The position numbers and the translations under genes were made by a program. From assembly GCF_964355755.1 (NCBI RefSeq), contig NC_092670.1, forward strand, positions 23,559,201-23,623,200: DNA of 64,000 bases, given 5' to 3'. Each line of letters starts with the position of its first letter. Positions within the stretch are counted from its first letter, which is position 1. This document shows positions 48,801 through 62,343 of the stretch, piece after piece. Origin of the DNA: Antedon mediterranea. Its lineage: Eukaryota; Echinodermata; Crinoidea; Comatulida; Antedonidae. The notes below the pieces were generated by a model. The model worked only from the letters and a program-made list of their open reading frames with translations. It searched no databases and was not told the origin of the DNA.

Positions 48801-51800
48801 TGTATTACTTTTTACTTTTCCATTGTTAACTGGTATACAAATCGCTTCTGAGGCCTTATAACTGAGAAGAAATCTAAGGTTATTTATGACCAGTAATAGA
48901 TCCTCTATTAGTGCTGCCTACTGGTACATACTGGATCAAAACAGAGTCTAGTGAAGGAAACTGATCAACAGTAAGTCAGTTATAATTCAAGACTGCTGAT
49001 TGATTGATAACTATATTTCAGAATGAAAATTCCATATACCGTTCATCAAACAATACAAAACGGAAAATCATAGTAAAATAGGATTTTCTTCCATTTAGTT
49101 GATTATGATTCTGTTTAAATTATTTGTTTTCTACTTTTAGCAATCCGAGGACGACGTTTAATGAAGGAATTAAGCACAAAGGGAAAAGAAGACGTTAAAA
49201 GTTTTCTGAGACTGTATGAATCACTAGGTGACCTGTACTGCAAACTTACAAATTACTCCAAAGCAATTGAATATTATCAAAAACAGGTGAATAATTGTGA
49301 CTTAAACCTTATTAAAAAGACACCTTCAGGTATTGTCCATAGTGTGAAAAAAATTATATTTACCATTACATTCATGCAAACAATTTCCTAAATATGGGGT
49401 GTTCACTGAATATGGGTGTCTGCTTCAACCCTTAACCCAAGTCTTTAACACCTTTTCCGGTCTGGCATCAGCAAATTAAATTGGACGTAAATGTTTTGTT
49501 TTCACACAGCTATGCGCATATCGATTGCCAGATAGTCGTGTGGAGAGTAAAAACGAAATATTGCCGACCGGAAACATGTCGGAACAGGTGTGAAACTTAA
49601 GAATTAACATTCTAAACTTTTTTTTCAATATCTTAATTTGTTTTTTCTCGACAGCTTGAATGTGCGAAGTCCTTGAGCAAACCCGAGATAGTTTTGATTC
49701 CGATTTATGTGTCATTAGCAGCAACATACACTGATAACAAACAGTATGAAGAAGCTGTGAACATGTACAAACATGAGCTACAGCTTAGAAAAGGCAACCA
49801 CAAGGAGGTACCGCAGTCACTAAGCACTCCCAAAAACTCTCTTAAATTCTGAATTTCTCAATACTTCCAACTATTAAATGTATTTTGAAAAACAGACTAC
49901 TGTATTGTAAACGAATGAATAAAAAGAACAGTGTTTATGATAGTGTATGTTATGGTGGAAATGCTAATATCAGGGTTCATGGGTCATTGAAAACCTGGAA
50001 AATCATGAAAAGTCATTGAACATTTTGGTAGAAAGGTCTTAATTAATTATAGTATTCTTTGGTGAAATTCAACAGTGACCAGTGGCTAGAGTGCTCACTG
50101 GCTAAACTAGGAGCCCCAGAGCTTATGGAGGCCCCTGAGCAGTGCCCAGAGGGAAAAAAAATGCCCAAGGCCTTCAGCGTTGGAGGGCCATTTAGACCAG
50201 GGCCTCACACCTCTGCATTATGCCACTGACAATGACATGATTCCTGAACATAGTCACTAAATTAAAGCAACAATATTGATACAAAGATAGTTTGACTGAA
50301 TCGTCTATATTTATACATTGCAGGCAGGAAGAACATGGTTAAACATTGCCAAGGCACAGGAAGACGGTGGGAAGCATTTTGCATTGATAAACAGCTGTCT
50401 CGAGAATGCATTGGAACGAGCTAGGAAAGCAGAACACCCTAGGTTACAAGTAAGGATGTTGATATTTTGCTTGGATGAATTCAAACATACATATTGCATT
50501 AATAGTCAACAGTGCTTCTTCACAATGAATATTATCTAAAATCGTCAGTAATTTTTAACAGTTGAGGGTTCTCAAAGAGTCTGCTGCCATTCAAGAAAAA
50601 TTTGTGGAAGATGTTTTGTTGGAGAAAACGCAGCGACAACTACAAGAAGTAAAAACAAAACATGATCTGGACTCTGAGGATGATGAAATTTCAGAGGATG
50701 ACTCAGAGGAGACTCAGAACGTTGAGGATGAGAGTCTTGATTTTACTGAATCGGGTATTATAATAGTTTTTAAATTGTATCTATCTACAATACAGGTACT
50801 TCGGTGCTATGTTGTTTACTTGCTTATTTAAAAAAAAAGGCCATATACTTGTCACAGCCATGCAAGATTGTCACAATTTGTTAATACATAGTAATATTAG
50901 TTCATAGCATTGCCATCATAAAACAGTGACAAACTTGAAGTAATAGATAAAAGGTCGAAATGAAAGTAATTAATAGGTTATACAATCATAGTTTATGATT
51001 GTCATTTTTCAATACAATATGTTACAAAATATTATTTTGTCTTTTAGAAGAATCAGAAGTCGATGAAAACGAAATTGTTGAAGGCGTGAGAAAACGGAAC
51101 AAGAAGCCACTTGTAAGATGAAATATTACTTGTTCACAACTTTGTAGAATTTGAATGCATAACAAACTAGTTCATCGGCAAGATAAGATTAGATGGCAAT
51201 GCAATTATATCTTAATTATATAATTGCTTTCAATTGTGTGCTGTGCAATCCTGGTTGGATTTTTAACCTTGCCTGTAAATAACTTAATGTAGGCTTAACA
51301 AGCGACTTTGATAACTCCAGAGGGCGCCATATTTAAAAAGTAAATTGGGACAAAAAAAGTTCTATAGGCGCTAGGGCCTAGATGGACATTTTTGTCCCGA
51401 TTGACCCTGTAAATATGGTGCCCTCTGGAGTTATCAACATCGCTTATTAACATTTGAACATCAACATTATTATTTTGTATTTTCTTTTTTAAAGTTTATG
51501 CGTCGGAATGAAAAAGGTGAAACACCATTACACAGAGCTTGCATAGAGGGTAATGTTAATTTAGTCAAGAAGTACTTGGAGCAGGTATGTTACAGGCTGT
51601 TAATTTTACAGATACATAATATATAATATTAGTAGACTAGTACATTTATATATGTACCGGTTTTTATCCAATACTATATTTAAATTTTTCTTATATATTT
51701 GTTCTTTTTAGGGACATCCAGTGAATCCACGAGATCACTGTGGCTGGACACCACTACATGAATCCTGCAACCATGGTCATTATGACATAGTGGCACTTCT

Positions 51801-59147: not shown

Positions 59148-61807
59148 ATGGCCGACGGTAAAGGTGAGGTTTGCAGTAGTTTGTAAAAGTTGCATAAATG
59201 AGAATAATCTATTAAATATGAATACTTTTTGTAAGAGAATTTATAAATGAATGTCATTTGAATGTTATATTCAATTTTAAAAACGTAATGCAATAAAAGA
59301 GAAGGCCTAGAATGCGTTATTATAGAGATTAGGCTAGGCCTCCGCTCGCCTATAAAAACGACTTCATTTTTATAATATGCATGGTCGGTTTACCGCATGA
59401 CCTCTGGTTGCCACCGATTTCATTGGTGACTTGAAGCATCTAGGCCTAGCTAGTAGTAGAGTAATAGTAGCGCTAACTTTGAGCTTGCAATTTCTTTCCA
59501 TGGCATTGTGAGTCTAGCTTTAGTGCAAAAGAAAAAATGTGATTTGTTGGATTTTGCATTTCTTGGAAATATGCCATCCATGAATGTTCAACGAAACATG
59601 TAACATTTCAATAAAACATTTGTTGTTGAGAGGTTAGTGAATTGTTCAGGGTAAACTAAAGTCTATAGGCCCAGTCAGGACAGGTTATAATATTACCCGC
59701 TATCTAGCCAATTTTGTTAACATATAAAAAAAATTGTTCTATTTCAGCCATAGCAGAGATACCTCTTCGTGAAGTGAAACTTGGTCAGCTACCGAAGTGG
59801 CTTGCAACATGCTCCTTCACACCAAGTGGAGTGAAAAATGCTGTTGTTAGAAGTGCGTATGACAGTATTTTTGTTCTAATCTTTAAATTATAGATTGGTG
59901 TCAATCTGAATGGTGTTCAGGTTTTAGAGACTTGGCAATGTATAGGAAAATTGTTATAATGCACTAGTAAAGAGCTTACAGCATCACCTCTCATGTTGTT
60001 GCGAGTCCGGCTGTAGTGCAATAATAATACTTGCTCAAAAGACATCTTGTTATCAATTAGTTACAAGTTTGATAGACAAGCAAGTTACATTGATAATAAA
60101 AAAAAATAAGGATATACAGGTAATTAAATAATAAATAATATCTACTTTACTTAGTTCTTAAATATGGTATTCATAGATTTCTGGCGGTACCATACCAAGT
60201 ACATCAATGTGAGGAAAGCTAACATTGCTCCTATTGGCCAATTTGTAGCGTTAACCATCGGACTAACATATATATGGAGATTCAAGAAAGAAAGTGAGTT
60301 TATTTTTCAAAAATGTTATACAGTCAACTCTCCCAATACCGGACTCTCCCAAAACCGGAATTCACGAAAAACCGGACTTTTTTGGAGGGCCCAATTTGTC
60401 CCTATTCTAAATGTACTGTAATTTATTATGAAAACCGGAATACCCAATTCCGGAATCCGGACAAATTATGAAGTACAAAACATGAAAATTAGCGTCTGAA
60501 AACCGGACTGACAGTTAAAAAACTCCAAATATTTACGAAAACAACGTAACATCGTCGTCGCTGACTCGGATTCAATACATTCACAATATACAAAAGCTTT
60601 TAACCATACCCTGACCATGAAGTGCGCGACGTTTCGCGGTACGATCAAATAATGTTGCCATGGAGCGCTACACTGTGATTGACAGGTCAGTTCATTGTTA
60701 ACCCACGAGGCGGCAATTGCTTTGTTGCGTATCGAACTGCGGTGGGCTAGGGCTTTTTCACATCGAAGCGCAATGTCTTAATGTCTATCGTTTTTTAGCA
60801 GGGAGTTGTTAACAACTCCCTGTTTTTTAGCATATGAATTGTTCAAGTTCAATTTACATTCCACTTTGTGTCTTTGTTTTGTTTAAATTATTGTTAAATT
60901 CACAATTGCAATAGGACTTTAAAAAGGAATTGTTTCACTAAAAATGTGCATCATTATAAATTTGGAAATCATTATGGCAAAACGTAAACGGACTGAACTT
61001 GACTTAACTAGTGTTAATAAACTTTGAAATGTTACCAATTAATTATTGTGTCATTGCTTGGCTCATTTACCTAATCAATTTTCATCATTGCTATCAAATT
61101 ACGTCAAAATAAAGGAGCTTAAAAAACATGTGGTCCAGGTGTGGGCGTTTTTATTTGATTATGACACCTCTGCACATGCGCATCAATCAAAGCCCCGCTT
61201 TGCTATTTTTATCACCCATGCTGCTGCTGCTAGCTAGCTCACGAAAAAAAAACCAATAAACAGACCGAAATTATGTTCACCGTACGTACGTAGGCCTTTT
61301 TGCCGTTAAAAACACATTGAGAAAAAATAATTTACTATTGTAACATGTTTTATTGGTACAGTAAATAATGTAACTTTTAAAAAAGGTAAATTGAATATTA
61401 ATATTAATAAAGTAGGCCTAGGCCTATCAGTATTTATTTAATTAAAACTAGCTTGACACAATCATAGCCTAGGCCTTCCCTACGCTAGACCGCACCGGGC
61501 AGCATTCCGACCGGTGATTCAAAGCATTTTCAGTGACAACGTGATGACTTTAAAAATATGTTTTCAGGAAACCGGACTTTCGAAAAACCGGAAAATATAT
61601 GCCCGCCCAAGGGTGTCCAGTATTGGGAGAGTTGACTGTACTATCAATTTTAAAGTATTGAAAACAATTTTTTTTATTTCTGCTGTTTTATCTTTTTATA
61701 AATCAATTTTGCAGTAATTCAAAAGCAGTTTCAGTTTTATGTTAATGAAATTCAAAATAAAATGTAATTTTTTTTCAGAGCACCACAGAATCAGAAAATA
61801 TCACTAA
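59148..61807 (+). CDS. ATP5MF: Mitochondrial ATP synthase subunit f
   Basis: Membrane subunit of the Fo part of ATP synthase in the inner mitochondrial membrane, near the a-subunit and dimer interface. Exons 59148-59163, 59748-59852, 60177-60293 and 61779-61807 join in phase 1 each time and give 88 aa (human about 94). Recognisable parts: REVKLGQLPKWL (human EVKLGELPSWI), FTPSGV, YHTKYINVRK (human YYNKYINVKK), one transmembrane segment IAPIGQFVALTIGLTYIW, and the basic end HHRIRKYH (human HERLRKYH). The last coding exon is only 29 bp including the stop. A probable 3' UTR intron (61821-62182) follows. Introns 1, 2 and the 3' UTR intron each hold a snoRNA-like element; intron 3 holds a pogo/Tigger element. 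Confidence 0.95.
59481..59601 (+). ncRNA. Candidate intronic H/ACA snoRNA, copy A
   Basis: In ATP5MF intron 1, 146 nt before the acceptor. Opening gagcttgcaa, conserved block tgtgagtctagcttta (59507-59522), hinge AAAAGA (59527-59532, fits ANANNA), 3' hairpin with basal stem TTTGTTG/CAACGAA (59543-59549 with 59589-59595) and an upper GCAT/ATGC stem, then ACA at 59596-59598, three nt before the assigned end. 121 nt. Most diverged of the three; the 5' stem pairs in a slightly different register (TTGCA/TGCAA). Confidence 0.5.
59972..60092 (+). ncRNA. Candidate intronic H/ACA snoRNA, copy B
   Basis: In ATP5MF intron 2, 84 nt before the acceptor. 5' stem GCTTACAG with CTGTAGTGC (one bulge), conserved block TGCGAGTCCGGCTGTA (60000-60015), hinge ATAATA (60021-60026), 3' hairpin with perfect 7-bp basal stem ACTTGCT/AGCAAGT (60029-60035 with 60079-60085), an internal loop on both sides, upper stem CTTGT/ACAAG, then ACA at 60087-60089. 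121 nt. Best fold of the three. Guide target not determined. Confidence 0.6.
60321..61638 (+). mobile_element. Internally deleted pogo/Tigger-type DNA transposon
   Basis: Flanked by TA (60319-60320, 61639-61640). Ends cagtcaactctcccaatacc and its near complement ggtgtccagtattgggagag+ttgactg; several 'aaaaccgga' runs next to both ends. Inside, 60974-61027 reads MAKRKRTELDLTSVNKL then a stop, which looks like the start of a Tigger-type transposase; the DDE domain is absent. Also contains a 24-bp perfect palindrome (60799-60822). 1318 bp in ATP5MF intron 3. Confidence 0.8.
60799..60822. repeat. Perfect 24-bp palindrome
   Basis: cagggagttgtt is followed directly by its complement aacaactccctg, and the pair is flanked on both sides by ttttttagc. 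Lies inside the pogo/Tigger element. Confidence 0.9.
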
Positions 61808-61882
61808 ACTTAAATAACAGAGTGAGTATATTGGATAGATTATACATTAACTTAATAATAGTTTTTAATTTGCATTACTTTT

Positions 61883-62004
61883 GAGCTTGCAATAATCTTT
61901 ATTATATTACTGCGAGTCCGGCTGTAATGCTAGAACAATACTTGTTCCTTACGCAACTTGTTGATGTACAGTAACATGTTTGTGTGAAAAGGCAAGTGAC
62001 AAAA
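61883..62004 (+). ncRNA. Candidate intronic H/ACA snoRNA, copy C
   Basis: In the probable 3' UTR intron of ATP5MF. 5' stem AGCTTGCA with TGTAATGCT (one bulged U, one G-U), conserved block TGCGAGTCCGGCTGTA (61911-61926, identical to copy B), hinge AGAACA (61932-61937), 3' hairpin with basal stem ACTTG/CAAGT (61940-61944 with 61993-61997) and upper stem AACTTGTT/AACATGTT (one mismatch), then ACA at 61999-62001. 122 nt. Confidence 0.6.
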
Positions 62005-62343
62005 CCTACTTGTTTTTACTTCAGACATTAAAATATGTCGAAAAAGGCTTAAAACTGGCACCCATCTCCACAAGCTGTTTAAACCATTTAGCCATTATTT
62101 GTTGACACTCACTGATACTGTATGTACTAACATTTTTGGAGCCACTATTTACATCACTGATTATGTAATTTTTATTTTACAGGACACCACAAATTACTGA
62201 ATTATCAACTGATAGACACGTAGATTACAGAATTAAAGAATTGACTATATTATCATAATTACCACTGTTGCAAATACAGTTCGTTTTTGAGTGAAAATCC
62301 ATTAGTGTTTAGTGGAAATCCGTCATTATGTATCATGTACGTT

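Follow-up and report, generated by a model that had tools for sequence, protein, structure and literature searches.

Probable SNORA50-like H/ACA snoRNA genes in introns of the ATP5MF gene of Antedon mediterranea

Three of the four introns of the gene for ATP synthase subunit f (ATP5MF) each hold one of three related elements, here called A, B and C, which are very probably intronic H/ACA snoRNA genes as judged from their anatomy in sequence and folding models, their paralogy and a sub-threshold family match. The paralogy does not extend beyond the RNA unit, the two-hairpin anatomy comes complete with its boxes, and the kinship to SNORA50 lies below the family threshold. The elements are of a known kind and do not form a new class; a mildly unusual feature is that the guides have diverged among copies inside one host gene. 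H/ACA snoRNAs direct the formation of pseudouridine in ribosomal RNA, change quickly in evolution, and their annotation is poor except in vertebrates and model organisms. The locus would add ATP5MF to the snoRNA host genes, and it offers a case of cis and trans copying of one snoRNA unit within one genome. In the model that we favour, the predicted snoRNAs would be processed out of the ATP5MF introns after splicing and would associate with the dyskerin complex (dyskerin, GAR1, NHP2 and NOP10), stable RNAs being made from A, B and C alike. The units would descend from a SNORA50-like ancestor that guided pseudouridine 34 of 18S, RNA-sized units having been copied between ATP5MF introns and, more recently, between this gene and one for a KDEL receptor; their guide sequences appear to have been redirected in part from one rRNA site to a different one.

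Host gene and anatomy of the copies

Joining four coding exons on the plus strand (59148–59163, 59748–59852, 60177–60293 and 61779–61807; span 59148..61807) yields a protein of 88 residues that matches Pfam WRW (PF10206) with an E-value of 9.3e-18, which identifies the host as ATP5MF. All positions are those of the window, by which we mean the whole 64-kb stretch of DNA analysed. The gene model gives introns at 59164–59747, 59853–60176 and 60294–61778. A fourth intron, at about 61822–62182 in the 3′-UTR, is indicated by GT/AG splice sites, with exon 4 extending to about 61821 and a 3′-UTR exon starting at about 62183. Intron 1 contains A, intron 2 contains B and intron 4 contains C, all in the orientation of the host, the placement of C in the 3′-UTR intron being deduced from these splice sites. 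The initial annotation had described three related elements in three ATP5MF introns, and this description is confirmed, together with the motifs that it listed as shared: GAGCTT(G/A)CA, TG(Y)GAGTC(Y)(R)GCT(K)TA, a hinge of the form ANANNA, and ACA after a 3′ hairpin. The kinship of the 5′ domains of the three copies is above chance (z 5.5–9.0; none of 500 shuffles did as well), and the same shuffle comparison finds no kinship beyond chance in their intron flanks. Intron 3, of 1,485 nt, is without a snoRNA copy. Within it, 60319–61640 is taken up by an insert of some 1.3 kb that resembles a DNA transposon and is bounded by 26-bp inverted repeats (TACAGTCAACTCTCCCAATACCGGAC) that are 96% complementary.

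The starts and the lengths of 121, 121 and 122 nt first assigned to the elements had to be given up. Those starts fall inside the 5′ pocket and cut off the 5′ basal stem, which lies 11–12 nt upstream of them. The corrected units are about 141, 135 and 136 nt long and occupy approximately 59468..59608 (A), 59958..60092 (B) and 61869..62004 (C), all on the plus strand; A is supported by its Rfam SNORA50 match, C by such a match and an H/ACA fold, and B by an H/ACA fold and near-identity to a fourth copy, D, described below. The 5′ basal stems are GCGCUAA/UUAGUGC in A, GCACUA/UAGUGC in B and GCAUUAC/GUAAUGC in C, with the 3′ strands directly before the hinge. In A the whole 5′ hairpin (59470..59526; unconstrained MFE −16.3) consists of this basal stem, the left guide CUUUGA, an upper stem and the right guide CUAGCU. 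The H boxes, read from the sequence and its alignment, are AAAGAA in A (59528..59533; aligned with B, C and the SNORA50 consensus), ATAATA in B (60021..60026) and AGAACA in C (61932..61937; also by Rfam). The ACA boxes of B (60087..60089) and C (61999..62001) were placed in the same ways. For A, an earlier assignment at about 59596 is replaced by 59603..59605 (GTAACATTT), which agrees with the other copies and with the Rfam alignment. The ACA directly follows the 3′ basal stem, in the place expected of an H/ACA snoRNA, which would put the predicted mature 3′ end 3 nt beyond it.

With the corrected start, the 5′ domain of all four copies adopts, as its unconstrained MFE structure, a closed hairpin that contains an internal pocket. 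Two hairpins with basal stems and an ANANNA hinge are likewise present in each of the four, the 3′ hairpin of A being less regular. The 5′ pocket lies 14 nt before the H box in A–D and the 3′ pocket 15 nt before ACA in B and D, within the range of 14–16 nt upstream of the box that is typical of H/ACA snoRNAs. A caveat raised earlier, that 17–19 nt separate the upper stem of B from ACA, thereby disappears, as the right guide in the folded pocket begins 15 nt ahead of ACA. Applied to A, C and D, RNAalifold reports −18.8 kcal/mol (z −6.2), and none of 1000 column shuffles was as good; the folding z of the full unit is −2.9 for C and −4.1 for D, and modest for A (−1.6) and B (−1.1) taken singly. 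The basal stem, in which 100% of the cells are paired, contains a compensatory change from C–G to U–A involving both sides, a covariation that rests on about three sequences since D is nearly the same as B. Stems common to the 3′ parts of all three copies had also been proposed. These exist in B and C, whose 3′ domains are related, but not in A, whose 3′ domain cannot be aligned with the other two (z 0.9–1.5), so that shared 3′ stems are confined to B and C.

Kinship with SNORA50

At gathering cut-offs, Rfam has no match in the 64-kb window. Below these cut-offs, the two best matches in the window are A and C, and both are to SNORA50, over the full model. A scores 34.5 bits (E 0.0012 in a 3.15 kb stretch, E 0.024 in the 64-kb window with 4,227 Rfam families) and C 33 bits (E 0.0025 and E 0.05, respectively). 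In a genome search, in which 44 of 24,206 candidates were scored, A was the best SNORA50 candidate. These scores are far below the SNORA50 gathering score of 90 bits, and the copies are therefore filed as SNORA50-like H/ACA RNAs, not as SNORA50. The proposal that they form an undescribed family is not supported, because SNORA50 is the best of the 4,227 families for A and C, and A keeps exactly the left guide for 18S U34. Elsewhere in the window, at 50672–50719, there is a weak Rfam match to the C/D snoRNA Z119 (28 bits, E 0.6) that is probably due to chance.

The shared family also bears on whether AT-rich introns might have mimicked the H/ACA layout by chance. DNA rich in AT often contains ANANNA and ACA, and the stretches as reported earlier gave no H/ACA shape when folded singly, with z-scores (−0.02 to −1.07) no better than those of shuffles. 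However, coincidence of this kind would have to account for the paralogy of the 5′ domains and the z-score of the alignment folding, as well as for Rfam picking the same H/ACA family for the two best matches of the window, and we consider it exceedingly improbable. The identification of the copies as SNORA50-like H/ACA snoRNA genes is the reading followed below.

SNORA50, also named ACA50 (Rfam RF00407, clan CL00034), is the guide for 18S U34 and U105. The copies described here have in common with it the two-hairpin H/ACA layout, the 5′ basal stem pattern GCRCU.../...AGUGC, the place of the H box with the 14 nt spacing, and the length (135–141 nt, against 136 for SNORA50). The SNORA50 left guide CUUUGA is at the same place in A and reads CUUUUGA in C. 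On the other hand, the right guide is CUAGC or CCGGC instead of the CAAGC of SNORA50, and the U105 guide is absent from the 3′ hairpins. The hosts also differ, being ATP5MF and the KDEL-receptor gene here and CNOT1 (intron 16, in chicken) for SNORA50 (PMC2653536). The chicken ACA50/ACA62 RNA, hosted by CNOT1, directs its 5′ pocket to 18S-34 and its 3′ pocket to 18S-105 (PMC2653536). The vertebrate targets of SNORA76 (ACA62; RF00598) are likewise 18S U34 and U105 (PMC2653536). SNORA76 was considered as a relative and rejected: the genome holds no credible match to it, the best having an E-value of 6.1 and lying at another place.

A fourth copy in a KDEL-receptor gene

Searches of the genome by DNA similarity and with two patterns found exactly one further copy. 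This copy, D, lies at C1:24149187-24149318 (L003:1487-1618). It occupies the final intron of a gene for a KDEL receptor (Pfam ER_lumen_recept, E 3.3e-48) and has the same strand as its host. D shares 98.5% identity with B in a match of 132 nt, which begins 3 nt upstream of the basal stem and extends as far as the ACA box; it covers the RNA unit only, and the flanks are unrelated. Retroposition of a stable snoRNA would be expected to yield a copy delimited in this way, like the mature RNA, although the usual marks of retroposition are not clear at either copy. The initial annotation had envisaged spread by duplication from intron to intron. The copies are indeed paralogues residing in different introns, but they are not confined to ATP5MF. 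Paralogues of vertebrate (chicken) snoRNAs have been described as products of both intragenic (cis) and intergenic (trans) duplication (PMC2653536). As here, these occupy several introns of one host and also another host; what sets the present case apart is ATP5MF as the host and a divergence among the cis copies, chiefly in the guides and the 3′ hairpin.

The two sites at which B and D differ both weaken stems in B. The energy of the 5′ domain is −16.1 in B compared to −22.1 in D, and that of the 3′ domain −10.9 compared to −14.8. C has the same base as D at the first of these sites, which marks B as the changed copy there. B, folding less well than D, may be redundant or decaying, a suggestion towards which we remain somewhat sceptical.

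A near-identical copy in another gene, together with differences that weaken B as in a decaying copy, is also what might be seen if the elements were a small mobile repeat, SINE-like or a snoRNA-derived retroposon, intronic by accident and devoid of function. Many copies outside ATP5MF had been named at the outset as a mark of a dispersed repeat, yet 354 Mb of genome contain four perfect matches to the core, all four of them intronic and on the host strand. To find diverged copies, the genome was queried by DNA similarity and by pattern, with covariance scoring applied to the candidates; core matches with two mismatches elsewhere scored at chance level against the model (best 17.8 bits, E 0.26), and no Rfam snoRNA is found there, leaving no degenerate copies that fit the model. 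Moreover, the old copies A and C have kept their stems and boxes, and neither a poly(A) tail nor a target-site duplication is clear by eye at D or at B. The small number of genomic copies and the restriction of the match to the RNA unit point to a small snoRNA family, and a mobile repeat seems to us very improbable.

Predicted targets in ribosomal RNA

The rRNA of the same genome was retrieved by pattern, giving complete 18S and 5.8S sequences and about 2,900 nt of 28S. As a positive control, the SNORA50 consensus placed U34 and U105 at rank 1. A free scan of all pockets returns many chance sites, and our claims concern the pocket of the folded hairpin only. For the pocket of A, 18S U34 (position 35 here, in UAUGCUUG-UC-UCAAAG) ranks first of 1,063 rRNA uridines, with a duplex energy that is unremarkable, 49% of shuffled rRNA sets giving an equally good site. 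The pairing comprises 6+4 bp with one mismatch, in the right guide, and an exactly kept left guide CUUUGA. Whether A would still guide 18S U34 is close to evenly balanced, leaning slightly towards the negative.

The pocket of C can also form 6+4 bp with 18S U34, but its better fit is to a uridine of 28S, which ranks first (−24.5) with only 1 of 400 shuffled rRNA sets as good. This is the U in CAGCCGG-U-CUCCAAGG, within the site GCAGCCGG-UC-UCCAAGG, that is, CAGCCGG-U-C-UCCAAGG. In B, C and D the right guide, CCGGCUG, is fully complementary to CAGCCGG, which is present in both 28S copies covering the site. A shift of C to this uridine is, in our estimate, an even call. The 18S U34 site and the 28S site have the pattern G-U-C-UC.AA.G in common, which would make a change of target easier. 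For the folded 5′ pockets of B and D, 18S, 5.8S and the roughly 2,900 nt of 28S offer no good target, and neither copy carries a left guide for the 28S CAGCCGG site. The 3′ pockets of the copies have no convincing rRNA site; U105 is not among the listed best sites, and its left guide AUAACU is absent from the 3′ hairpins of all copies. A fit of the 3′ pocket of C to 18S position 209 (−17.3) was discounted, since such pairing would draw on nucleotides of the basal stem.

The copies might instead be orphan H/ACA RNAs whose role is structural or unrelated to rRNA. The lack of a good rRNA target for B and D, the unmatched 3′ pockets and the drift of the right guides from the SNORA50 CAAGC would all fit such a role, but the exact retention of the U34 left guide in A, with U34 ranked first, and the fit of the C pocket to its 28S site beyond chance speak for rRNA guides, and targets in the last part of 28S or in snRNAs would have escaped the scan. 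We regard orphan status as unlikely. Returning to ribosomal guides, it is tempting to see a snoRNA caught in the act of changing its target, with A fitting U34, C fitting a U34-like site in 28S, and B and D carrying the new right guide without the left one; this is a speculative reading that we hold to be doubtful. If the targets hold, the locus would be a testable case of a duplicated guide RNA gaining a new ribosomal site, and if the retargeting is true, a lineage-specific RNA would guide pseudouridine formation at the 28S site.

Some minor features of the rDNA were noted along the way. The sarcin-ricin region is in none of the 28S copies found by pattern. These copies (L008 from about 5060 onward, L010, L011 and L028) are either truncated or interrupted by what looks, by eye, like an R2-type retrotransposon. 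At about 1880–1960 of L028, a 28S fragment is followed by GCCTA-rich repeats (TAGCC/AGCCTA), so that the rDNA fragment ends there.
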